Shown here: positions 1-27,295 of the stretch, piece after piece
Numbering within the stretch: the stretch's first letter is position 1
How the letters are laid out: every line of letters begins with the position of its first letter
Assembly (NCBI RefSeq): GCF_008124715.1
Contig: NZ_VNHO01000008.1
Span: 1-64,000 of the forward strand
DNA from: Thermosediminibacter litoriperuensis
GTDB taxonomy: Bacteria; Bacillota; Thermosediminibacteria; Thermosediminibacterales; Thermosediminibacteraceae
Direction: 5' to 3'
Length of the DNA: 64,000 bases
The notes under the pieces: model-generated
The model's input: the letters and a program-made list of their open reading frames with translations, nothing else
Databases searched by the model: none
Told to the model about the DNA's origin: nothing
Position numbers and translations under genes: made by a program

Positions 1-477
1 GAATACTTCCTTTCTGAACTTATCCTTGGCGGAGAAATTTTCAAAGGCATAATGGAATTCACATTGCCCAAGATAAAACAGCAGGATGTGCAAAAGGTTG
101 GAAAGATAGTGTTGGGGACGGTAAAGGAGGACGTCCACAACATAGGCAAGGACATATTCAAAGTATTTGCGGAGGCATCGGGGTTTGAAGTGGTGGACAT
201 AGGCATAGATGTTCCCGAGGAGAAATTTGTAGAAGCGGTGAAAGAACACAATCCGGACATAGTGGGCATGTCGTGTCTCATCACGGCGGGAGTAAGCTCG
301 ATGAAGAAGACCGTGGATTCACTAAAGGAAGCCGGGGTAAGGGACAATATAAAGATAATAATAGGCGGAGGCAGGGTAGATGAAGGAGTAAAAGAGTTTG
401 CCGGGGCGGATGCCTGGGCGGACGATGCGGCGAAGGGAGTAAGGCTTTGCAAACAATTAATGGGGATTGAGGGGTGA
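1..477 (+). CDS. Corrinoid (B12-binding) protein of a methyltransferase system, 5' end outside window
   Basis: The reading frame is open from base 1, so the gene starts upstream; 158 residues are visible. The first ~25 visible residues are the end of the helical cap domain usual in MtaC/MttC/MtvC-type corrinoid proteins. A Rossmann-like B12-binding domain follows, with the D-x-H-x-x-G signature (D44, H46, G49 of the visible part) whose His is the lower cobalt ligand, then S-x-L and GG motifs. It would carry a methyl group between the two methyltransferases encoded at 477 and 5821. Its stop overlaps the next start (TGATG), so the two are translationally coupled. Family assignment is firm; the methyl donor is unknown. 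Confidence 0.93.
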   Translation, partial: EYFLSELILGGEIFKGIMEFTLPKIKQQDVQKVGKIVLGTVKEDVHNIGKDIFKVFAEASGFEVVDIGIDVPEEKFVEAVKEHNPDIVGMSCLITAGVSSMKKTVDSLKEAGVRDNIKIIIGGGRVDEGVKEFAGADAWADDAAKGVRLCKQLMGIEG

Positions 478-1706
478 TGGCGATGGCGGTAAATACTGCA
501 AAGGAACTTGCTGAAAAGCGTCTAGCGCGAATAATGGCGGCTATTAACTTGGAGGAACCGGATAGAGTTCCCCTTCGGGGGTTTGGAGGAGATGTGATTC
601 CGGCCTATTACGGCATAACACAGCATGAATATTGCTATGACTACGAAAAAGCTATAAAAGCAGTAGAGAAGTATTTAAAAGATTTTCCCTTCGACTGGCC
701 TACGGCAGGAATTACCGGTTTGGACGGGCGCGTATTTAGTGTGGCGTTTTCGGAATATCCCGATATAGCGTCAAACACCACGTTTATAACGGGTCCGATG
801 CACGATGTGTTAGGAGACAAATACTACCGGTATCCCGGCAGGGAAATAGCCGAAGATGCATCTCCCCAGTTTATCGGCGGCACTTTTATGGAAGCCGATG
901 AATACGACAAATTGATCGAAGACCCCGTGAAGTTCGTTGCGGAAACGGTGTTACCGAGAACGTGCCGCAATATGGGGACTCCGCGCCAGACCATGGCGAC
1001 AATGGTGAAGTTGGGTATGGAATTCAGCAGGTTTGCCGCCGCCGCCCGCGAAATTGGAGCAATTTCGGCTCAATTGGGGTATCCCTCCATTCCGCTGGGA
1101 GGAGCTTACGCACCGCTGGATATTATCGGGGACTTTTTAAGGGGTATAGAAAATGTACTTTTGGATATCAGGAGATATCCCGAAAAAGTCAAAAAGGCTG
1201 CTGAAGCTCTGGTGGAACCGATCGTAAATTATGCCCTGGCCTTTAAAAAGAGAGGAATAAATATTGCATTCATTCCGCTGCACTTGAATGAATACTTATC
1301 GCCGAAGCTTTATAAGGAGTTTTACTGGCCCACCCTGAAAGCGGTCATATTGAGACTTGTAGAGGAAGGTATGAAGGTATTTGTATTCTTTGAGGGCCGC
1401 CATGACGCCCATCTGGAGACTATCCTCGAGCTGCCCAAGGGCTGGGGTATAGCGTATTTTGAAAAGACCGATGTGGTGAAGGTAAAAAATCTCCTACAGG
1501 GCCACACCTGCGTCATGGGAGGTATACCCATCAGCCTACTGGTAGGAGGTACGCCGGCATCCATAGAAAAATACGTAAAGAACCTGCTGGAGCAGGTAAA
1601 ACCCGGCGGAGGCTTTATACTTTCTACGAATATTGGAACTGCTCCTAAGGAGACTCCGCTCGAAAATATCACCGCTTTGATTGAAGCGGTAGAAAAATAC
1701 GGTTAA
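477..1706 (+). CDS. Uroporphyrinogen decarboxylase-family methyltransferase (substrate:corrinoid, MTI-like)
   Basis: About 409 residues of the UroD/MtaA superfamily TIM barrel (PF01208 type). In catabolic methyltransferase operons such proteins move a methyl group from a substrate to the Co(I) corrinoid protein encoded just upstream. The C-terminal third has an E-G-R-H segment and a C-V-M-G-G-I-P motif, positions where relatives hold zinc ligands; assigning them as ligands is inference. The start is ATG 477, overlapping the previous stop; ATG 483 has better spacing from the GAGGGG site at 469-474 and is a real alternative. True heme-pathway UroD is unlikely because of the corrinoid partner and the missing hem genes. 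The substrate could be a methoxyarene, an N-methyl compound or a betaine. Confidence 0.85.
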   Translation: MAMAVNTAKELAEKRLARIMAAINLEEPDRVPLRGFGGDVIPAYYGITQHEYCYDYEKAIKAVEKYLKDFPFDWPTAGITGLDGRVFSVAFSEYPDIASNTTFITGPMHDVLGDKYYRYPGREIAEDASPQFIGGTFMEADEYDKLIEDPVKFVAETVLPRTCRNMGTPRQTMATMVKLGMEFSRFAAAAREIGAISAQLGYPSIPLGGAYAPLDIIGDFLRGIENVLLDIRRYPEKVKKAAEALVEPIVNYALAFKKRGINIAFIPLHLNEYLSPKLYKEFYWPTLKAVILRLVEEGMKVFVFFEGRHDAHLETILELPKGWGIAYFEKTDVVKVKNLLQGHTCVMGGIPISLLVGGTPASIEKYVKNLLEQVKPGGGFILSTNIGTAPKETPLENITALIEAVEKYG

Positions 1707-1719
1707 GTTTTATAAAGCC

Positions 1720-1750
1720 GGACACCGGTGGATTTTTTCCATCGGTGTCC
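1720..1750 (+). terminator. Stem-loop after the methyltransferase gene
   Basis: GGACACCG at 1720-1727 pairs with CGGTGTCC at 1743-1750, and TGGA/TCCA extends the stem inside. The sequence after it is A-rich rather than a T run, so it is a weak intrinsic terminator or an mRNA-stabilising hairpin. Confidence 0.45.
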
Positions 1751-1782
1751 CGTTAAAAAAATTTCAAATTAGAGGTGTAAGT

Positions 1783-3093
1783 ATGTGGCTGGAAAAAGGT
1801 ATCGGTGAAGAAAAAAGATGGTTTTATCCCATCTCCGCCTTTATAATAGGTGCGGCCACTTTCGTAACCCAACTTTGGACCATGTTTTACCCTCATATTC
1901 AGGCCCATTTCGGACTGGAAACCACGGCATCAATAGTTTTGGCCGCCACTTTCAGCGGAATGGGTGTCATGATTATCGGTCCACCCATTACCGGGACCAT
2001 TTTGGATAAATATGGCCCCAAAATACCGTTTATGATGTCGGCGGCATCTTTTGTGGCAGGTCACAGCCTGATATTTAAAATGCTCACAATGAAGGATTGG
2101 TCCACGGCAATGTACCTTTGGTATTTGGGAAGCTTCCTGGTGGGTTTGGGAGCCGGATTTTACTCGGGCACATATACGGCTACGGTGGGGAAATGGTTTC
2201 CCGACAAGCCCGGAACGGCTATGGGTCTGGCCGTCGCCGGCGCGGGTTCCGGAACGGTCATATATTCACCTTTAGTAGCATCTTTGATAAGGTCTTACGG
2301 TTTTTCGGGGAATGTTTTCTTACTTTTCGCAATAATTGCGTTGGTGGCTTTGGTAGGATTAGGGATACCTTTTTGGAAAACACCTCCTCACGACTGGGTT
2401 CCTGCCGGAATGCAGCCTAAGTCTAAGTCTTTCAACGCAAAGTCTATTCATATAGCCAAAGATTACACCCTTCAGGAAGCGGTTAAAGATAAAAGGTTTT
2501 GGCTTCTTTACGTATGTTTTATTTGCGCGGCCTTTTCCAACATGTTCTTTGTGCAGAATGCCTCTTTAATAATCATTGAAGGATTAACCCAAACCATGAG
2601 CAGAGAGGACATCCTAGCTTCAGTCGTACCGCTATTTCTCACGATATCCGCGCTGGCTGGACTCCTGGGGAGATTTGGATGGGGTGTAATCTCCGATAAA
2701 TTGGGTGGGCCGTGGAAGACTCTCTGGATGGTTTACCTTTTCCCCGCAATACTAATGAGCGCCTTTTACCTCGGATATCATTCGGTAATGCTTATATTTA
2801 TAATTGGATTTTTGCTGTATTTTGGTTTTGGCGGCGAGCCGGTGGTTCACTACGCAATAGTTCCCTATGTGTTTGGTAGAAGGCATCTGGGAAAGATCAT
2901 GAGTACATTAAACGCCTTTTCGGTGGGTATAGGAATAGCTTTCGGGCCGTATGTGGGGGCTTATATTAAAGATGTAACCGGAGGGTATTACTGGGCGTTG
3001 GTGTTGGCGATAGTTATACGTTTGTGCGGAACGGCCTTTGCTCTTTTGGGATTGAGGCTTGCCCAACAACAGGAAAGTTCGGCGAAGGCTTAG
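1783..3093 (+). CDS. MFS transporter, oxalate/formate antiporter (OFA)-like
   Basis: 436 residues with about 12 hydrophobic segments and the major-facilitator loop motif (D-K-Y-G-P-K near residue 74, repeated in weaker form near residue 305 as D-K-L-G-G-P). The K-W-F-P-D-K...G-x-A-V-A-G segment near residue 140 is typical of the OFA family, which moves small carboxylates. It starts at ATG 1783 behind AGAGGTG. Lying between the methyltransferase subunits and their activator, it probably imports the methylated substrate or exports the demethylated product. The transported compound cannot be read from the sequence. Confidence 0.85.
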   Translation: MWLEKGIGEEKRWFYPISAFIIGAATFVTQLWTMFYPHIQAHFGLETTASIVLAATFSGMGVMIIGPPITGTILDKYGPKIPFMMSAASFVAGHSLIFKMLTMKDWSTAMYLWYLGSFLVGLGAGFYSGTYTATVGKWFPDKPGTAMGLAVAGAGSGTVIYSPLVASLIRSYGFSGNVFLLFAIIALVALVGLGIPFWKTPPHDWVPAGMQPKSKSFNAKSIHIAKDYTLQEAVKDKRFWLLYVCFICAAFSNMFFVQNASLIIIEGLTQTMSREDILASVVPLFLTISALAGLLGRFGWGVISDKLGGPWKTLWMVYLFPAILMSAFYLGYHSVMLIFIIGFLLYFGFGGEPVVHYAIVPYVFGRRHLGKIMSTLNAFSVGIGIAFGPYVGAYIKDVTGGYYWALVLAIVIRLCGTAFALLGLRLAQQQESSAKA

Positions 3094-3099
3094 ATAGGC

Positions 3100-3500
3100 A
3101 AAACAGGCATGACCATGGCATCCACTATGACAAAGGTGAAACGTTTTTATCTATAGGGCCTTGAAATCCGGGCTGTACAATAGAGTCGACGTTTTTACCG
3201 AGTTCAGAAATAGTAGATTTAGAAAACTCGGTACCGCAAAGCTGAGGTGATTTCTTCAATTGAACTCTGAACATAAGGGTGCCGACTCTGGTAATAAGAT
3301 TTCTCGGATAGTAGCTGTTACGGTAGGCTTGTCTTTCCACGGTTCTTTCATAAAGTTCTGCTTTTTTTGTTCGGTTGCCTGGGCTTGCAGTATTTGATTG
3401 AGTACTGATTCAAAAAGTTTGGTCATCCCCTCATCTCTAGCTTCTTATAAAAAGAGGTGGTGCAAATTACAGAATCAATGGTAATATTATATTGAGCCAT
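3100..3500 (-). pseudogene. Decayed IS256-family transposase remnant
   Basis: On the minus strand an ATG at 3500 opens M-A-Q-Y-N-I-T, the usual IS256 transposase N-terminus. Pieces then follow in several frames: L-x-E-S-V-L-N-Q-I-L-Q-A-Q-A-T-E-Q, then R-Q-A-Y-R-N-S-Y-Y-P-R with R-V-G-T-L, then C-G-T-E-F-S-K-S-T-I-S-E-L, and finally P-F-V-I-V-D-A after another shift. The segment between R-V-G-T-L and C-G-T-E-F, some 35 residues in full-length relatives, is deleted, and everything after the V-I-V-D-A region is missing. Several frameshifts and a stop near 3428 make it non-functional. The bases from 3500 to 3650 contain its old upstream region. It marks a past insertion inside the methyltransferase cluster. 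Confidence 0.82.
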
Positions 3501-3648
3501 TCTCATCCCTCCAGTTAGGTTTTTGAGTTCGTCACCTTTTATTCTAACCAGAGGGGTGAGGGTGGCTCAACCCTTTTTTAAAACTTCTTTTTTACGCAAT
3601 TATACGGACTTAGCTCCATTTTTTTTAATATTTTAGGTGGTGTTTGCA

Positions 3649-5409
3649 ATGAACAAATACAAAATTACGATACTTCCGGATAATATTGAAATCTCAGTGG
3701 AGGAAAACACTACTTTTATAAAAGTTTTAACGGAAAACGGCATAAAATTTGAATTTCCGTGCGGTGGGGCGGGCAAATGCAAAAAGTGCAAGGTAAAGAT
3801 CTTCAAAAAGAGCGGTCAAGAAGAGGTACTTGCCTGCCAATTGAAAGTAACCGAGGATTTAGCTGTTGAAATTCTCAAAAAGGAACAGAAACACGAGATA
3901 CTGACAGAAGGTGTGGAGCGACAGGTGGTGCTGGACCCTTTAATAAAAAAGGTGTATCTGGAATTGCCCCGACCTTCCTTAGAGGATAATCGCGATGACT
4001 GGAAAAGGGTAGCCGGGAATACTGGAATAAAGACGAATCTTAAAATATTGCAGGATTTGCCGGAAAAGATAAGGGAGAGCGATTTCAAGGTTACCCTTGT
4101 ACTTACAGGCGATGAAATTGTGGCCATTGAAAGCAGGGATACCAGCGATAAATTATTGGGGATGGCCTTTGATATCGGAACTACCACCATTGCAGGATAT
4201 CTTCTAAATTTAAAAACGGGGCGGGAACTTATCCGAGTATCAGCTTTGAATCCGCAGACAAAATACGGTGCCGATGTGATTTCGCGCATAAAGGTTGCTT
4301 CCGAATCTAAAGAGGGGTTGGAGAAACTACATAAAGAAGTTGTGGCAGAAATAAACAACTTAATAGAAAAGGCGGTAAAAGAAACCGGCTATAAACCGGA
4401 GGAGGTATATGCCCTTACTATTGCCGGAAATACTACGATGCACCATCTTTTATTGAAAATCCAGCCGAAATATTTGGCCCGGGCCCCATACGTGCCGGTG
4501 GTAACGGAACGGGTGATTGTCGATGCCGGCGATATCGGTATAAGGATAAATCCGGCGGGAAAAGTCTTTATACTTCCCAATATAGCCGGTTTTGTGGGGG
4601 CGGATACGGTAGCGGCGGCTCTGGCTGCCGAGATGGATAAGTCCGATGAATTAAAGCTTTTAATCGATATCGGGACTAATGGAGAAATGGTGCTGGGCAC
4701 CAAAGGAAGGCTCTTTGCCTGTTCCACCGCCGCGGGACCCGCCTTTGAAGGTGCCCATATATCCTGCGGAATGAGGGGAGCTCCGGGCGCCATCGACCAC
4801 ATCCGTATCGATGAAGAATTAGAATATACCGTAATTGGTGAAACATTACCCAGCGGTATATGCGGTTCGGGACTTTTGGATGTGGTGGCGGAACTTTTGA
4901 AGGCAGGGATTGTGGACAAAAACGGTCGAATTTTAAAACCCGAAGGGGTTACAAGTGAGTTGGGCCAAAAGTACAGGGACAGGATTGTCGACATCAACGG
5001 TATTCGGGCATTTATTCTTGAAGAAAACACTGCAACGGGACAGCCGGTATATATTAACCAAAAAGATATCAGGGAACTTCAGCTGGCAAAAGGCGCCATT
5101 GCCGCCGGAATAGAGATCCTCTTAAAAACTTTTAATGCTAAAGTTGAGGATATAAGTGAGGTATTTCTCGCGGGGGCTTTTGGGAACTATTTGAAGCCCG
5201 AAAGTGCCTGCGAGGTGGGATTAATTCCTCGAGAACTTGAGGGTAAAATAAAAGCAATTGGAAACGCAGCGGGTGGCGGAGCAAAGCTGGCCCTGCTTTC
5301 GGAAAAGGAGTATGAACGGGCAGTAATGATTTCCAAAAAGATACATTACATCGAACTCAGTACAGAGCCGGAATTTAGCAGCGTATTTGCTAAGAATTTA
5401 GGGTTTTAA
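3649..5409 (+). CDS. Reductive activator of corrinoid proteins (RamA/RACE-like, 2Fe-2S ferredoxin plus ASKHA domain)
   Basis: 586 residues. The N-terminus is a plant-type [2Fe-2S] ferredoxin domain with C38, C44, C47 and C63. A linker and a DUF4445-type ASKHA ATPase core follow, with D-I-G-T-T-T near residue 174 and D-I-G-T-N-G near residue 339. Such proteins use ATP to drive one-electron reduction of inactive Co(II) corrinoid back to Co(I). ATG 3649 is chosen because AGGTGG lies 7 bases upstream; the two GTG codons further up overlap that site. The likely client is the corrinoid protein at 1-477. A second, longer homologue lies at 25370 in the acs operon. Confidence 0.9.
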   Translation: MNKYKITILPDNIEISVEENTTFIKVLTENGIKFEFPCGGAGKCKKCKVKIFKKSGQEEVLACQLKVTEDLAVEILKKEQKHEILTEGVERQVVLDPLIKKVYLELPRPSLEDNRDDWKRVAGNTGIKTNLKILQDLPEKIRESDFKVTLVLTGDEIVAIESRDTSDKLLGMAFDIGTTTIAGYLLNLKTGRELIRVSALNPQTKYGADVISRIKVASESKEGLEKLHKEVVAEINNLIEKAVKETGYKPEEVYALTIAGNTTMHHLLLKIQPKYLARAPYVPVVTERVIVDAGDIGIRINPAGKVFILPNIAGFVGADTVAAALAAEMDKSDELKLLIDIGTNGEMVLGTKGRLFACSTAAGPAFEGAHISCGMRGAPGAIDHIRIDEELEYTVIGETLPSGICGSGLLDVVAELLKAGIVDKNGRILKPEGVTSELGQKYRDRIVDINGIRAFILEENTATGQPVYINQKDIRELQLAKGAIAAGIEILLKTFNAKVEDISEVFLAGAFGNYLKPESACEVGLIPRELEGKIKAIGNAAGGGAKLALLSEKEYERAVMISKKIHYIELSTEPEFSSVFAKNLGF

Positions 5410-5473
5410 AGGTTAAAAGACCACAAAAATAAAACCAAACCATAGAGCTAAACGATCTTTTGGTTGTCCATTG

Positions 5474-5549
5474 ATATTCCTTCCAATAGAAATGTACCTT
5501 AAAATACTTCTATAAAGAAGCACCTTGTACCTTCTATTGGAAGGAATAT
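5474..5549 (+). repeat. 18-bp perfect inverted repeat with 40-base loop
   Basis: ATATTCCTTCCAATAGAA at 5474-5491 is the exact reverse complement of 5532-5549. The loop holds a smaller hairpin (CTTCT/AGAAG around 5508-5520), and TTTTTT follows the right arm. It may be a terminator of the activator gene or a small miniature-element remnant. No gene is visible in 5410-5611. Confidence 0.7.
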
Positions 5550-5611
5550 TTTTTGTACCAAAAAGCATCAATTTATATTATAACTTCAGAAAAAAAGAAA
5601 AATGATCAACA

Positions 5612-5640
5612 TTGACAAATATTAAAAAATGTGTTAACTT
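5612..5640 (+). promoter_or_regulatory. Sigma-A type promoter
   Basis: TTGACA at 5612-5617, a 17-base spacer and TAACTT at 5635-5640. It gives the methyl-THF methyltransferase gene its own promoter with a leader of about 175 bases. Confidence 0.6.
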
Positions 5641-5662
5641 AATAACGGAGGGAACGATATAC

Positions 5663-5743
5663 ATGTATAGACAAGATATTTTCCGTGATAAGGGAGAATA
5701 TATCGGGGTTCTGTTGAAGGTTTTGGCTAAACCTTCTGGCTGA
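5663..5743 (+). other. Possible 26-codon leader ORF with stem-loop
   Basis: An ATG at 5663 sits 8 bases behind GGAGGG and opens 26 codons ending in TGA at 5741-5743, within the leader downstream of the 5612 promoter. Its 3' part contains a perfect 8-bp hairpin (GAAGGTTT 5716-5723, AAACCTTC 5729-5736). It could be a regulatory leader peptide or chance. There is no T run, so it is not a simple attenuator. Confidence 0.3.
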
Positions 5744-5820
5744 AACATGTAAGATGTCCGGAGTGTGCCGTTCTGGAAATGATGAATTATCAAAATATAA
5801 TATAAAAAGGGGAGGATAAA

Positions 5821-6645
5821 ATGATTATAATAGGAGAAAAGATCAACGGAACAATTCCGCGCGTCAAAAAGGCTATAGAAGAAAGAGATGAAGCCTTTAT
5901 TCGCGAACTTGCGGTAAAACAGGCAGAAGCAGGTGCCGATTTCATCGATGTGTGTGCGGGGACTTCCCCGGAGGAAGAGGAAGAGACTTTAAAATGGCTG
6001 ATGGAAATTGTCCAGGATGCGGTTGACAAACCTTTATGTATTGACAGTCCAAATCCCAGAACCATAGAGCAGGTATTTAAATATGCGCGCAAACCCGGAA
6101 TAATAAATTCGGTATCTGAAGAAAGGAATAAATGCGAAATTATATACCCCCTAATAAAAGGTACCGAATGGCAGGTCATCGGGCTTACTTGTGATAATAG
6201 AGGAATTCCTTCAGATGTTCAAACGAGGATAGATATAGCAAAAATACTTGTTGAAAAGGCACAAAAATATGATATTAGTCCCGAACGTATACATATTGAT
6301 CCACTGGTCATAGCCATAGCAACGGATAACCAATCGGTGCATAAGTTTGTGGAAACATTGGTCAGTATAAAAAAAATTTTTCCCAACGTCAAGGTCACTT
6401 CAGGACTGAGCAATGTTTCTTTCGGAATGCCCTTGAGAAAAGCGATCAATCAAACTTTCTTAACTGTAGCGGTCTTTGCTGGAATGGATTCGGCCATTAT
6501 GGATCCATGCAATAGAGAAATGATGACAACGCTGCTGGCGGCTGAAGTTATAGCGGGCCGGGACAAACATTGCAGAAGATTTGCTAATGCGTATCGAAAG
6601 GGTTTAATTGGTCCTATAAAGACGCTGCCCGGTGATGCAAATTAG
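5821..6645 (+). CDS. Methyltetrahydrofolate:corrinoid methyltransferase (MTII-like, DHPS fold)
   Basis: 274 residues of the dihydropteroate synthase-like methyltransferase family, sharing with AcsE the G-E-K-I-N-G start, the D-x-C-x-G-T segment, G-L-S-N-V-S near residue 198 and D-P-C-N near residue 230. It would take the methyl group from the corrinoid protein and place it on THF, feeding methyl-THF into the pathway encoded from 8378 on. It is a paralogue of AcsE (21866), not a copy: the C-terminus is longer and only the folate-site motifs are shared. GGGGAGG lies 5 bases before the ATG. It completes the set of two methyltransferases, a corrinoid protein and an activator. Confidence 0.88.
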   Translation: MIIIGEKINGTIPRVKKAIEERDEAFIRELAVKQAEAGADFIDVCAGTSPEEEEETLKWLMEIVQDAVDKPLCIDSPNPRTIEQVFKYARKPGIINSVSEERNKCEIIYPLIKGTEWQVIGLTCDNRGIPSDVQTRIDIAKILVEKAQKYDISPERIHIDPLVIAIATDNQSVHKFVETLVSIKKIFPNVKVTSGLSNVSFGMPLRKAINQTFLTVAVFAGMDSAIMDPCNREMMTTLLAAEVIAGRDKHCRRFANAYRKGLIGPIKTLPGDAN

Positions 6646-6679
6646 AGGAGAGGTAAAGCTGCGGTAGGAAAGGATTATC

Positions 6680-7648
6680 ATGGTAAAAACTAGTACCGTT
6701 CTTGATGGCCGCCTTCACCGTAAAATGCGGGATGATATAATGTTCGTAGATTCTCACGTACATATTTCTTTGAACGGCATGAATTCAAAAGATTGGCGCA
6801 GGATTTTAGCGGAAGGCAACTATAAGCCAATCATGGAAATATTGGATTTATACAAAAGTAAAAACATCCTGATACTTCGCGATGGCGGTGACAATCTTGG
6901 GGCATCTTTAGCCGCCAGGGAAATAGCGGGGCGAATGGGTATCATTTATAAAACACCGGGATGGGCGATTTACAAAAAAGGAAGGTATGGAGGCTTTTTA
7001 GGTAGGCCCGTCACCGATATTAAAGATTTTAAAAGCATGTTCGCTGAACTTTTGAAATCTAAACCCGACCATCTTAAGGTTATATTAACCGGGATTGTGG
7101 ATTTTAACTCGTACGGACAATTCGGCGGAATTTCATTTTCTTATGAAGAATTGTATTATATGATTCAACGGGCAAAGGAAAAGGAATTGCCTATAATGGT
7201 CCATGCAAACTCATCCGCGGCAGTTAAAATGGCTATCGAAGCTGGAGCCGATACGATAGAGCACGGGTATTTCATTACCGATGAAGAGCTGCATATGATG
7301 GCTGAAAGAGATGTAATATGGGTACCAACTCTGTCGCCTTTGGGTAACATTATTGAAAATAAAGATTTCAGATATCGATATCGCAATCAGATACAGATTA
7401 TTAAAAGGATTTTTAATGAACATTTAGCAGCTGTCAAAAAAGCGATTGATTTAGGAGTAAAAATCGCTATCGGAAGTGATTCGGGCTCATTCGGTGTGTA
7501 TCACTCTCAGGGCTTCTTCGATGAAGTTAAACATATAAAAAAGTGTGGAATTTCTGAAAATCAAATATTTAAGATAGCCTTTGTAAATGGAATAAAAGCT
7601 CTGGGTATAAAGCACCTCGAACTCAAATTGTTAGAAAACCAGGGTTAA
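6680..7648 (+). CDS. Amidohydrolase-superfamily protein
   Basis: 322 residues with a metal-dependent hydrolase pattern: H-V-H near residue 27, a candidate bridging Lys in L-K-V-I-L-T near residue 134, H near residue 175 (M-V-H-A-N), H near residue 195 (E-H-G-Y) and D near residue 274 (G-S-D-S-G). These would form a one- or two-metal site in a TIM barrel. Families with this pattern cleave amides, lactams or deaminate rings. ATG 6680 follows AGGAAAGGA. Its place right after the methyltransferase suggests that it processes the demethylated substrate, which is inference. The exact reaction is not recognisable. Confidence 0.75.
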   Translation: MVKTSTVLDGRLHRKMRDDIMFVDSHVHISLNGMNSKDWRRILAEGNYKPIMEILDLYKSKNILILRDGGDNLGASLAAREIAGRMGIIYKTPGWAIYKKGRYGGFLGRPVTDIKDFKSMFAELLKSKPDHLKVILTGIVDFNSYGQFGGISFSYEELYYMIQRAKEKELPIMVHANSSAAVKMAIEAGADTIEHGYFITDEELHMMAERDVIWVPTLSPLGNIIENKDFRYRYRNQIQIIKRIFNEHLAAVKKAIDLGVKIAIGSDSGSFGVYHSQGFFDEVKHIKKCGISENQIFKIAFVNGIKALGIKHLELKLLENQG

Positions 7649-7670
7649 TATCGGAGGAGGATATATATTT

Positions 7671-8201
7671 ATGAAGATAGGGACGAGGAAAATTACGTAT
7701 CTTGCTATGTTCGTCGTGCTCAACATAGTACTCACCAGAGTTGCCAGTATAAGGATAGCTTCTGGAACGGTGGAGGCTATAAGGATCGGATTTGGAGGAT
7801 TTCCGGTTATACTGGCGGGCATTGCACTGGGTCCGGCTGCGGGGGGTGTTGTGGGTGCGTTGGGAGATTTGCTGGGTTACTGGATAAATCCCATGGGGCC
7901 TTATATGCCTCATTTTACGGTGACAGCAGCCTTAACCGGTATAATACCAGGGCTTGTGATGCGAATTTTTAAAAATGAACAACCCGCTCTTTGGCAGCTG
8001 TTTTTAGCTATTGCAGTGGGGCAGATAATAACATCGGTTCTGCTCGTCCCATATTTCCTTTATAAACTGTTCGGTGTTCCGCTGGTCTACAAAATGTCCA
8101 CGGCTTGTCTGGTACAGGCTTTTAATATACCTATATATACAATATTCACCAGGCTGCTTTTAAAAAGGGTCAACCTTAAGCCAGCGCTTTCAAAAAATTA
8201 A
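7671..8201 (+). CDS. folT: Folate-type ECF transporter S component
   Basis: 176 residues, about five to six membrane segments. The R-I-G-F-G-G-F-P stretch near residue 41 and the G-A-x-G-D-L-L-G-Y stretch near residue 66 match the folate-binding S components of energy-coupling factor transporters. The shared EcfA/EcfT parts are not in this window and must be elsewhere. It sits 22 bases behind the amidohydrolase with a strong GGAGGAGG site. A folate importer beside a THF-demanding pathway is functionally sensible, and no promoter separates it from the methyltransferase module. Confidence 0.8.
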   Translation: MKIGTRKITYLAMFVVLNIVLTRVASIRIASGTVEAIRIGFGGFPVILAGIALGPAAGGVVGALGDLLGYWINPMGPYMPHFTVTAALTGIIPGLVMRIFKNEQPALWQLFLAIAVGQIITSVLLVPYFLYKLFGVPLVYKMSTACLVQAFNIPIYTIFTRLLLKRVNLKPALSKN

Positions 8202-8295
8202 GTAGAATAATGGTTGATAACTTTGGTCTTCAGCCCCGAGGCGAAAAAGAATCCATAAATTTCAACTTAGGGGTATTTTTCAATTTCAACATATA

Positions 8296-13320: not shown

Positions 13321-14142
13321 ATGAAGGAAAAATTTAAAATATTAATAGCTTCGGGGGCCGATGAACCTGCCGCCCCCGGACCCTTTCAGGTAAGATACAG
13401 CGGTGAGTACGTACACCGTAGATTACTACCACATCTGACCGACTATAAAAGGGGCAAGGGTGTACCGGATAAAAAATGTTTGGAGTACAGAAAAAGATTC
13501 AACCTTGACAATTCTAAGTATATAGCAGGAATTATTCTTACTCCCGGAATTTTGCCGCAAATCGTAGATGAACCGGAGGAGTTTATACCTTCGGAAATCC
13601 CGGAACACAATATTCTTATAGCAGCGGGGGTCCACCCGGATATAATGATCGAGCTCATTGAAAAAGCCGCGGGCAACGGATGCCGGGCGCTGATCGCCCC
13701 CAGGGAAGATCCGAGCTGGATTGACTCGGTTCTTGAAAGAAAGATCAGAGGGCTATGCGCCGGCTTGGGCATCGAATGTGTTTTCCCACGCCCCTTCTGC
13801 GCCCTGCAGAAAAGCGGCTTTGCTTTCATTGATGAATTTCTCGAAACTTTTGGCCTCGGAAAGCCCGAATATGAGATTACATTGAACAAAAACGGGATCA
13901 TTGAGGATGTTTTGGTCAGATATTCGGCACCCTGCGGCGCCACATATTACGTGGCGGCGGGCCTTATCGGTATGAAAAAAGAAGAGGCTGTAGAAACGGC
14001 TAATAAACTCTGGCACTGTTATGTGTGCCTCGCAAGCGGCAAGATAGATCCGGACCTCGGCGATTCGATAATGCATATTGCGGCCCATATAAATCTAGCC
14101 GTCGCGAAAAAAGCGGTGGAAAAAGGGAGCGGGAGGGTATAA
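13321..14142 (+). CDS. DUF166-like protein of unknown function inside the folate branch
   Basis: 273 residues, soluble. I relate it to DUF166 (PF02593), a family mainly known from methanogens and some Clostridia, because of the C-G-A-T-Y-Y-V-A segment near residue 202 followed by W-H-C-Y-V-C-L-A-S-G and a D-S-I-M-H-I-A-A-H tail. Several Cys (near residues 119, 148, 156, 202, 229, 232) could bind a metal or Fe-S cluster. It sits between fhs and fchA, 1 base before fchA, with a GGCGGTGG site. No reaction is established. A role in folate one-carbon chemistry or its electron supply is only suggested by position. Confidence 0.6.
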   Translation: MKEKFKILIASGADEPAAPGPFQVRYSGEYVHRRLLPHLTDYKRGKGVPDKKCLEYRKRFNLDNSKYIAGIILTPGILPQIVDEPEEFIPSEIPEHNILIAAGVHPDIMIELIEKAAGNGCRALIAPREDPSWIDSVLERKIRGLCAGLGIECVFPRPFCALQKSGFAFIDEFLETFGLGKPEYEITLNKNGIIEDVLVRYSAPCGATYYVAAGLIGMKKEEAVETANKLWHCYVCLASGKIDPDLGDSIMHIAAHINLAVAKKAVEKGSGRV

Positions 14143-21865: not shown

Positions 21866-22651
21866 ATGGCGAGATTTATGACAATAGGCGAGAGAATTCA
21901 TGTTATTTCTCCGGTTATTAGGAAAGCCCTCCAGGAGAGAGACCCCGCCCCTATCCTTGAAAGAGCCAGGGAACAGGTTGAAGCCGGAGCTCATTACCTG
22001 GACGTCAACATCGGACCTGCCGAACGGGACGGGGAAGAGCTCATGCCCTGGGTGGTGAAACTCCTGCAAAGCGAATTTCCCGATACGCCTTTGTGCTTGG
22101 ATACTGCAAATACAAAGGCTATCGAAGCGGGGCTTAAGGTTTACGACCCAAAACCGGGCAAGGCAATCATAAATTCCGCCGACGCCGGCGCCAGGATAGG
22201 TATGCTGGAAGTGGCCGCCGAATACGGGGCGATGGTTATAGGGCTGTGTGCCAAGGAAGGTATACCCAGGGACAATGATGAGCGCATAGCCTACTGTACA
22301 GAGATCCTTGACAGGGCAATGGCTGTGGGCTTGAATCCGGAAGATATACTCTTTGATCCCCTGTTCGTCGTAGTAAAGGGGATGCAGGAAAAACAGCAGG
22401 AGGTGCTCGAGGCCGTAAGACAGATTTCTGAAATGGGTCTGAAGACCACCGGGGGCTTAAGCAATGTCTCTAACGGATGCCCCAGAAACCTGAGGGGTCT
22501 TATCGAGGCGGTATTTTGTTCAATGGCAATTCAGTGCGGCTTAACCTCCGCCATTATCAACCCCTGCAACAAGCTGCTTATGGATGTAATAAAGACGTCC
22601 GAGGTCATTAAGGGGTGGAACCTGTACTGCGATTCTTATCTTGAGTTATGA
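21866..22651 (+). CDS. acsE: Methyl-THF:corrinoid iron-sulfur protein methyltransferase (MeTr)
   Basis: 261 residues, equal to the usual ~262. DHPS-like barrel with G-E-R-I-H-V, D-V-N-I-G-P near residue 48, L-D-T-A-N near residue 77, G-L-S-N-V-S-N near residue 196 (the Asn that hydrogen-bonds folate N5) and N-P-C-N near residue 229. It moves the methyl group of methyl-THF to Co(I) of AcsCD. GGAGGTG precedes the ATG. Confidence 0.96.
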   Translation: MARFMTIGERIHVISPVIRKALQERDPAPILERAREQVEAGAHYLDVNIGPAERDGEELMPWVVKLLQSEFPDTPLCLDTANTKAIEAGLKVYDPKPGKAIINSADAGARIGMLEVAAEYGAMVIGLCAKEGIPRDNDERIAYCTEILDRAMAVGLNPEDILFDPLFVVVKGMQEKQQEVLEAVRQISEMGLKTTGGLSNVSNGCPRNLRGLIEAVFCSMAIQCGLTSAIINPCNKLLMDVIKTSEVIKGWNLYCDSYLEL

Positions 22652-25369: not shown

Positions 25370-27295
25370 ATGGATGGATGCACTATACTGTTTAAACCCC
25401 AAAACAGGATCATAAAAGTGAAAGAAGGCACCAGCCTATTGGAAGCCGCCCGCAAGGCCGGGGTTTTCATCGACGCGCCCTGCGGCGGCAGTGGTCATTG
25501 TGGGAAATGCAGGATAAGGATACTCGAGGGAGATTACAGGTTTGAGAAATCTCTCGTTCTTCCCGATGCGGATTTTGAAAAAGGGATACGTCTGGCGTGC
25601 CTCACTTATGCACTGAGCGACATGGTCGTAGAGCCCCTGGAAATTAAGGTGACAAACGAGGTGCTGGTAGAGGATGTGGATCCCGGCGAAGAAGAAAAGG
25701 GGTGGATCAAAAAGGCTCGAAGGATGATGGAAGATTCGGGGATAGAAATTAAAAGCGGGTTAGAAAAAATAAGGCTCGCCCTCGACCCTCCAACCTTGGA
25801 CGATAATATCCCGGATTGGGAACGCCTTTGCGGGGGACTTGCGACAAAGTGCGGCCCCCAATCCCCCCGGTGTTCCCTGGATGTGTTGAAAAGGCTGCCG
25901 GGAACTCTTAGAGGGAATGGGTTTGATATAAACGTAATACTGGCAAGAGAACATGGCGATTGTGAGATAATAGACGTTAGGGGTTCCTGTGCGGATAAAC
26001 CCCTTTACGGGATATGTGTTGACGTGGGGACAACCACCGTAGCGGCAAATCTGGTGGAGCTTGAAACAGGAAAGATAAAGGAGTCGGCGAGCGCCGGAAA
26101 TCTCCAGATGCAGTACGGCGCCGATGTTATAAGCCGGATCATTTATTCGACCGGTGAAGGCGGTCTTGCCGCCCTCAAACATGCAGTCGTCGAGGGTACA
26201 ATAAACCGGCTGGTTGAAGAGATGACCGCGAGGCTTAATATATACCCGGAGGATATAATCTTTGGGGTTTTTGCGGGCAACACCACAATGGCTCATCTTC
26301 TTCTTGGAGTTGAAGCGGAAAACATACGGCTGGAACCCTATATACCAGCTTTTAGGAACCATCCACCGCTTAAGGCTAGGGATGTGGGAATTCGTATAAA
26401 TCCCGACGCGCCGGTGTTTATAGTGCCGGGTGTGGCGAGTTATGTCGGTGGGGATATTGTTGCGGGGGTCCTGGCGGCCGGCATTTGGGACAGCGACGAG
26501 AATGTGCTGTTTCTCGATCTTGGTACCAACGGTGAGTTAGTATGCGGAAACCGGGAAGTCATGGTTGCCTGCGCGTGTTCGGCAGGCCCTGCTTTTGAAG
26601 GTGGAGAAATAAGCTGCGGCATGAGGGCTATGCGGGGAGCCATAGACGAAGTAACGATAGACGGAAGGACTTTAGAGCCCTGCTACAGCGTGGTAGGAGG
26701 TACCAAACCCCGCGGGATATGCGGTTCCGGTTTGATAGACCTCGTAGCCGCCATGTTTATGACGGGGATTATAGACCCGAAGGGAAAGATAAACGCCGGT
26801 TTGAAATCCGAAAGAATAAGATTCGACGATAACCTGGGCGTCCACGAATACGTAATAGCATCTCAGAACGAGACTGAAGACGGCCGCGAGATAACCATAA
26901 ATGAGATAGACTTGGACAATTTCATCAGGGCAAAAGGTGCGGTCTACGCCGGGATAAGGACGCTGCTTAAAACCCTTGATATGAATGTCACGGACATAAA
27001 TAAAATAATAATAGCCGGCGGCATAGGCAGAGACCTGAATATTAAAAATTCCATAAACATAGGCTTGCTGCCGGAATTGGAAGAAGAAAAGTTCGTTTAC
27101 ATCGGCAACAGTTCCCTCATTGGGTCCTATCTTTGCCTCATCAGCAGGGGGGCGAGAGAAAAAGCAAAACATATAGCGGAATCAATGACCTATGTGGAAC
27201 TCAGCGCCTTCCCCGGTTACATGGAAGAGTTCGTAGGGGCCTGTTTTCTGCCCCACACCGATATAAGGCTTTTTCCGGGTGTTATGAAGAAGTAG
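25370..27295 (+). CDS. acsV: Corrinoid activation/regeneration protein AcsV-like
   Basis: 641 residues. The N-terminal [2Fe-2S] domain has C38, C44, C47 and C77, with a longer gap before the fourth Cys than in the homologue at 3649. The ASKHA ATPase part has D-V-G-T-T-T near residue 217 and D-L-G-T-N-G near residue 382. It would re-reduce the AcsCD corrinoid to Co(I) with ATP. The position after the acs genes is the typical acsV place. A 171-base gap holds an inverted repeat but no clear promoter. Confidence 0.9.
   Translation: MDGCTILFKPQNRIIKVKEGTSLLEAARKAGVFIDAPCGGSGHCGKCRIRILEGDYRFEKSLVLPDADFEKGIRLACLTYALSDMVVEPLEIKVTNEVLVEDVDPGEEEKGWIKKARRMMEDSGIEIKSGLEKIRLALDPPTLDDNIPDWERLCGGLATKCGPQSPRCSLDVLKRLPGTLRGNGFDINVILAREHGDCEIIDVRGSCADKPLYGICVDVGTTTVAANLVELETGKIKESASAGNLQMQYGADVISRIIYSTGEGGLAALKHAVVEGTINRLVEEMTARLNIYPEDIIFGVFAGNTTMAHLLLGVEAENIRLEPYIPAFRNHPPLKARDVGIRINPDAPVFIVPGVASYVGGDIVAGVLAAGIWDSDENVLFLDLGTNGELVCGNREVMVACACSAGPAFEGGEISCGMRAMRGAIDEVTIDGRTLEPCYSVVGGTKPRGICGSGLIDLVAAMFMTGIIDPKGKINAGLKSERIRFDDNLGVHEYVIASQNETEDGREITINEIDLDNFIRAKGAVYAGIRTLLKTLDMNVTDINKIIIAGGIGRDLNIKNSINIGLLPELEEEKFVYIGNSSLIGSYLCLISRGAREKAKHIAESMTYVELSAFPGYMEEFVGACFLPHTDIRLFPGVMKK

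Follow-up and report, generated by a model that had tools for sequence, protein, structure and literature searches.

A probable Mto-type methoxyarene O-demethylase module beside the acs genes of Thermosediminibacter litoriperuensis

The genome of Thermosediminibacter litoriperuensis (2.34 Mb in 68 contigs) carries, at the very start of contig C8 (NZ_VNHO01000008.1), a set of genes for corrinoid-dependent methyl transfer, and the question raised by this locus is which methyl donor it serves. Bases 1-64000 of the contig were analysed and are referred to here as the window; loci and genomes compared with it bear L and G numbers, respectively. A first-pass annotation of this DNA had held that the layout points to no described substrate, a view that the comparisons made here do not support: the methyl-tetrahydrofolate (methyl-THF) methyltransferase (MTII) and the corrinoid protein (CP) have as their closest PDB relatives what we take to be O-demethylase parts from Desulfitobacterium hafniense, and the order of CP, UroD-type donor-specific methyltransferase (MT1) and MFS carrier is that of the methoxyarene operon of Archaeoglobus fulgidus. 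In the latter, AF_0006 (MtoC), AF_0007 (MtoB) and AF_0008 (MFS) are induced by 2-methoxyphenol (PMC8359953). The module is probably an Mto-type corrinoid aryl methyl ether O-demethylase, a reading that extends to the class of substrate. The class of system is known, and the module most likely represents a new branch of this machinery, with the archaeal Mto type as its nearest relative and with a folate-dependent MTII.

Composition of the module

The genes concerned are the following:

1-477, plus strand (remainder at 1-296 of contig C5, minus strand): CP, MtoC/MtvC-like, C-terminal 158 of 210 aa; PF02310, best PDB match 4jgi
474-1706, plus strand: MT1 of the UroD superfamily, 410 aa; PF01208, CdmB the sole PDB sequence match, with AlphaFold2 (AF2) fold, tree and H270/E307 as further evidence
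1783-3093, plus strand: OFA/monocarboxylate-type MFS carrier; PF07690, PDB 6g9x and OxlT 8hpj
3637-5409, plus strand: RACo-type reductive activator of CP (2Fe-2S and ASKHA); PF00111, PF17650, PF17651, PF14574, PDB 3zyy at E=4e-109
5821-6645, plus strand: MTII, a methyl-corrinoid:tetrahydrofolate methyltransferase of the MtvA/MtqA/CdmA type and AcsE paralogue; PF00809, NF005719 above cut-off
6680-7648, plus strand: amidohydrolase; PF01979
7671-8201, plus strand: FolT-type folate energy-coupling factor S component; TIGR04518 above cut-off

A four-component, tetrahydrofolate-feeding corrinoid system is defined by the co-location of a CP, a donor-specific MT1, an MTII and a reductive activator, and all four are found here. 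The first-pass annotation was correct in recognizing this set together with the OFA-type carrier and amidohydrolase genes, all on the plus strand, but its description of the activator as RamA-like does not hold, and the amidohydrolase probably lies outside the donor module. CP is without its N terminus because the window opens at base 1 of C8. Contig C5, when reversed, overlaps C8 by exactly 140 bp and holds the only other copy of that sequence in the genome; the join proposed from this overlap gives a CP of 210 aa in which the DxHxxG motif is present as DVHNIG.

MTII shares 69% identity with PDB 4o0q; aligned to Moorella MeTr (2e7f) and 4o0q, it retains the folate-site motifs DSxN, NS, IDPL and GLSN. 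Structures 4o0q, 4o1e and 4o1f (MTII) and 4jgi (CP) presumably all derive from the O-demethylase of D. hafniense DCB-2, with which MTII and CP were compared. The module has dedicated copies of MTII and activator, given that these are only 36 and 37% identical, respectively, to the AcsE (21866-22651) and AcsV (25370-27295) of the nearby acs operon. By its domain order, an N-terminal 2Fe-2S domain followed by the RACo linker, middle and C-terminal domains, the activator is of the RACo/AcsV/acetogen activating-enzyme type. A RamA-type activator, recognized by C-terminal 4Fe-4S clusters, the lack of an N-terminal 2Fe-2S cluster and a TIGR04270 score above cut-off, was rejected; Rama_corrin_act (TIGR04270) scored 153 bits, far below its cut-off of 500, and Fer2 and RACo domains are present. 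A betaine system of the MtgB/MttB kind was likewise discarded, MT1 being a URO-D protein and the module containing no MttB gene. As the complete set of CP, MT1, MTII and activator adjoins the acs genes, the earlier proposal that methyl-THF would be fed into them is upheld.

Phylogeny and active site of MT1

MT1 matches a single PDB sequence, at 34% identity, namely CdmB (9rui), the methyltransferase of the chloromethane system of Acetobacterium dehalogenans. Relatives at 60-87% identity occur across the Thermosediminibacterales and in a few other Bacillota, with up to five paralogues per genome, often accompanied by carriers, which is counted here as typical of O-demethylase sets. Archaea of the phylum represented by locus L051 encode relatives at 42-56% identity, mostly with an adjacent corrinoid protein, and at the archaeal loci L051, L200, L201 and L198, MtrH-like and/or RACo genes lie beside them, the composition of an mto operon. 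One relative (L050, 55% identity) belongs to the metagenome-assembled genome M17C-03 which, to judge from its name, apparently came from the dimethoxybenzoate enrichment of PMC10477458.

In a maximum-likelihood (ML) tree, a single clade (100/99 support) unites the window MT1 with the archaeal proteins and CdmB, and leaves outside the proteins of Moorella thermoacetica, which was recognized by a 100% match of its MeTr. Two other groupings, both chosen after the tree had been seen, were rejected by the approximately unbiased (AU) test: joining the bacterial MT1 clade with the Moorella Mtv-type group lowered the log-likelihood by 203 (p=1.3e-59), and making it the exclusive sister of CdmB lowered it by 39 (p=7e-5). 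The closest characterised relative of CdmB is MtoB, to which it is 31% identical (PMC13222342), and with CdmB inside the MT1 clade, MtoB would therefore be expected in the same clade. In the comparison with known UroD groups that had been proposed at the outset, MT1 joins the archaeal mto-like proteins and CdmB and is separate from the Moorella Mtv type, but it does not group at the family level with any tested enzyme. The possibility that a second group of archaeal proteins (L181, L182, L184 and others) represents MtoB was dismissed, since these are larger (465-487 aa) and have neither CP nor activator neighbours. Archaeal branches surround the bacterial MT1 clade in the ML tree, a pattern that suggests a transfer of MT1 between the domains, its direction unproven. 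This direction may differ from the published view of movement from bacteria to archaea.

With the Mto systems of Methermicoccus shengliensis and A. fulgidus (PMC8630106, PMC8359953), the module shares a CP, a UroD MT1 of 47-48 kDa, an MFS gene directly after that of MT1 and an activator with an N-terminal 2Fe-2S cluster, in addition to the operon composition of its archaeal clade-mates; the M. shengliensis mto operon is flanked by MFS carriers (PMC8630106). It differs in its bacterial host, in the swapped order of MTII and activator, and in having a folate-dependent MTII of the MtvA/MtqA type (PF00809/NF005719) in place of the MtrH-like MtoA. The Mtv-type vanillate O-demethylase of M. thermoacetica also combines a UroD MT1 bearing H270 and E307 with a CP and a folate-dependent MTII, in the order MTII-MT1-CP-MFS at L248, where a palindrome similar to the operator described below (2 mismatches) lies upstream. 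Its MT1, however, is of approximately 390 aa, 31-32% identical to that of the window and in a separate clade, and the Moorella system is described as having no activator in a passage of PMC10477458 that cites Naidu and Ragsdale.

The AF2 model of MT1, with a predicted local distance difference test score of 95, has the UroD/MtaA fold, and its search with Foldseek against a copy of the PDB without CdmB returned UroD and MtaA matches only. The E-G-R-H and C-V-M-G-G motifs singled out by the first-pass annotation are segments of strands 6 and 7, and C346 varies within the clade. Among the 123 UroD-type MT1s aligned, Moorella proteins included, H270 is found in 118 and E307 in 119 (Asp in three), whereas CdmB has Trp and Gln at these positions. 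The two residues would be expected to assist departure of a phenolate oxygen, whereas chloride would leave without such need, and they may mark the difference between UroD methyltransferases that cleave ethers and those that cleave haloalkanes. If this were confirmed, methoxyarene users could be told from chloromethane users in genome sequences.

The methyl donor and its alternatives

In the mechanism proposed, the MFS carrier would import a methoxylated aromatic compound of the lignin type, probably an aromatic acid, while the RACo-type activator would reduce CP to the Co(I) state with ATP. MT1 would place the aryl methyl ether beside Co(I), which would take the methyl group as H270 and E307 help to protonate the leaving phenolate, and MTII would then transfer the methyl group from CH3-Co(III)-CP to tetrahydrofolate. 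The resulting methyl-THF may enter the adjacent acs pathway to yield acetyl-CoA, or it may be oxidised to formate, with FocA as the channel and a formate dehydrogenase nearby. The MT1 unit opens with the gene of FocA, which in Fervidicola and Thermovorax is followed by that of an extra FchA paralogue. Thermophiles of deep sediments are not known for methyl uptake, and such a module would supply an enzyme and a regulon through which it can be tested concretely.

The carrier most resembles the L-lactate transporter SfMCT (best NCBIfam) and the oxalate antiporter OxlT. Its homologues adjoin MT1 genes at L098, L035, L047 and L252 and, at 30% identity, at the Jordarchaeum locus L052. It likely imports the donor, probably an aromatic acid, or exports the product, and the presence of a dedicated carrier argues against a gaseous haloalkane as donor.

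Some observations weigh against an aryl methyl ether as the donor. The proposed kinship with MtoB rests on operon make-up, protein size and the published relation between CdmB and MtoB, and the bacterial MT1 clade has no assayed member. The family match of the carrier lies under the NCBIfam cut-offs, and a second carrier gene nearby on C5 carries a frameshift. No literature record was found of growth of Thermosediminibacter on methoxyarenes; for Thermacetogenium phaeum, reports of such growth conflict (PMC3551663).

The alternative that survives best, albeit an unlikely one, is an O-demethylase acting on a non-aromatic methyl ether or other O-methyl donor, such as methoxyacetate, 2-methoxyethanol or methylated sugars or acids. 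The fold, the His/Glu pair and the OFA/monocarboxylate-like carrier would suit any carboxylated methyl ether, and MT1 is not near any assayed enzyme. However, the operon order equals that of the aromatic mto operon and, to our knowledge, the UroD MT1s so far characterised as cleaving ethers all have aryl methyl ethers as substrates.

An improbable assignment is that of a dehalogenating methyltransferase of the Cdm type, in which MT1 would guide CH3Cl to Co(I)-CP and MTII would form methyl-THF. It would account for CdmB being the only PDB sequence matched by MT1 and a member of its supported clade, and for the kind of CP and MTII shared with the A. dehalogenans system, CdmBCA (9rui; PMC13222342). 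An identity of 34%, however, falls short of the at least 40% that delimits the conservation set of the source paper, and the exclusive sistership with CdmB, a grouping chosen post hoc, was rejected as noted above. Furthermore, CdmB is haloalkane-specific and has neither H270 nor E307, both of which are kept in the window MT1, and the cdmBCA name set includes no carrier, which a gas would not require.

There is very little to suggest that the locus is being dismantled and has become non-functional in this strain. The frameshifted MFS gene and the shortened FolT copy on C5 would fit such decay, as would Thermosediminibacter oceani, where CP-MT1-MFS is missing and different activator genes occupy the slot; the window genes, on the other hand, are intact, with key motifs present and 86% identity to intact orthologues, and promoters and operators are retained. 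It is scarcely credible that MT1 is a methyl-corrinoid:thiol second methyltransferase (MtaA/MtbA/Mlp-like) without donor specificity, as the MtaA/CmuA family of NCBIfam is matched only weakly, at 47-60 bits and thus far under the cut-offs of 235-244, a separate MTII is present, and the Zn motif is absent, the HxC ligand positions of the MtaA-like paralogue in the same genome corresponding to F305 and E307; membership of the family itself (TIGR01463, 47 of 235 bits) was rejected on this basis.

The amidohydrolase probably belongs to the folate/C1 genes and not to the methyl-donor module. In T. oceani, whose genome is without this MT1, it (87% identity) lies downstream of MTII, separated from it by an activator gene, and in other relatives it adjoins Fhs, FolT or MTII. 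No match at 1e-20 was found in five MT1-bearing genomes of the same order (G011, G014, G015, G018 and G020), and Tepidanaerobacter genomes with MT1 are also without the gene. A role as donor-releasing enzyme was rejected since the gene accompanies those of MTII, FolT and folate metabolism and is absent from relatives that keep MT1.

Operator, regulator and neighbouring genes

The intergenic region upstream of MTII contains one further element:

5612-5672, plus strand: promoter and palindromic operator, consisting of TTGACA (5612-5617), 16 nt, TTAACT (5634-5639) and ATACATGTATAGAC (5659-5672); conserved ahead of MTII in relatives

Three exact copies of ACATGTATANAC occur in the 2.34-Mb genome, each closely downstream of a TTGACA-type promoter, at C8:5661 (MTII), C5:1325-1336 (FocA-CP-MT1-MFS) and C5:7044-7055 (a second CP-UroD pair); reversed, as a control, the pattern has no occurrence genome-wide. 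With all three copies restricted to this locus, the MT1 and MTII units are predicted to be regulated together, and a lack of co-expression, which the first-pass annotation had named as a possible objection, is made less likely. The RACo gene is preceded by a separate gap of 543 bp. T. oceani has two operator sites, one upstream of MTII and the other approximately 1.5 kb upstream of the second CP-UroD pair, and G022 has both, at MTII and in the second CP-UroD region. An Rfam scan of 1-28500 returned nothing at E<=1, hence no known riboswitch upstream of MTII or FolT, and comparison of the intergenic gaps with those of relatives found no hidden genes, the gap at 5410-5820 being the conserved promoter/operator region.

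On the minus strand of C5, a GntR/UTRA gene (C5:2062-2832) overlaps a corrinoid-protein gene by 4 bp (pair L100:2062-3530). GntR and corrinoid genes are same-strand neighbours in 17 of the 19 loci examined, which were picked for their methyltransferase content and include some close relatives, so that this ratio is not a frequency; the corrinoid protein keeps DxHxxG. Further pairs are:

L083, L085, L086, L089-L093, L209, L220, L206, L248-L250, L253 and L221, same strand as partner: GntR/UTRA-corrinoid loci, some near Moorella Mtv-type genes

These neighbourhoods suggest that the GntR/UTRA protein may sense through its paired corrinoid protein, possibly through the state of the latter. Together, the two likely regulate the MT1 and MTII units by way of the shared operator. 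Among the papers searched, none dealt with GntR regulators of O-demethylases or with GntR-corrinoid pairs. A broader scenario, offered tentatively and rather unlikely as a whole, is that an archaeal methoxyarene MT1 of the Mto type moved into thermophilic Bacillota and was rewired to the bacterial folate-dependent MTII, its whole regulon coming under a GntR/UTRA repressor responsive to whether a dedicated corrinoid protein, encoded on the same transcript, is methylated or to its redox state.

Across the proposed C5-C8 join, the gene order begins with a formate dehydrogenase-like gene (with an in-frame TGA), FeFe hydrogenase, a short FolT copy, DUF1638 (on the other strand), the second CP with a divergent second UroD (453 aa) and the frameshifted MFS. 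It continues with a third corrinoid protein, GntR/UTRA, FocA, CP, MT1, MFS, RACo, MTII, amidohydrolase, FolT, ferredoxin, CooS, CooC, and Fhs and onward. The carrier gene next to this second pair (L100:3779-4678, contig C5) is split by its frameshift, giving 299 aa compared to 423 aa in T. oceani. The FolT region is duplicated over 620 bp at 89% identity (window 7646-8265 and L100:8086-8705), the C5 copy having a shortened frame, and in T. oceani just a 47-bp trace of FolT is left between the amidohydrolase and ferredoxin genes. The formate dehydrogenase-like molybdopterin oxidoreductase frame near the demethylase locus (L282, C5:10579-11847, with L100:8703-9992) contains one internal TGA, possibly for selenocysteine, and adjoins the FeFe hydrogenase gene. 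A 273-aa protein encoded between fhs and fchA (window 13321-14142) is kept in T. oceani (84%).

Two other UroD loci lie elsewhere in the genome. On contig C3 (L101:7588-11649), a UroD-corrinoid fusion of 616 aa, with what is presumably the domain order of CmuA, has as neighbours a further UroD gene and one of the MtrH family. At approximately 76-83 kb of C5 (L099:5757-12575), three UroD genes occur with a RACo activator and pyridoxal phosphate (Cys/Met-type) genes, resembling a type 1 mlp gene cluster for methyl-sulfur/selenium compounds (PMC10418091).

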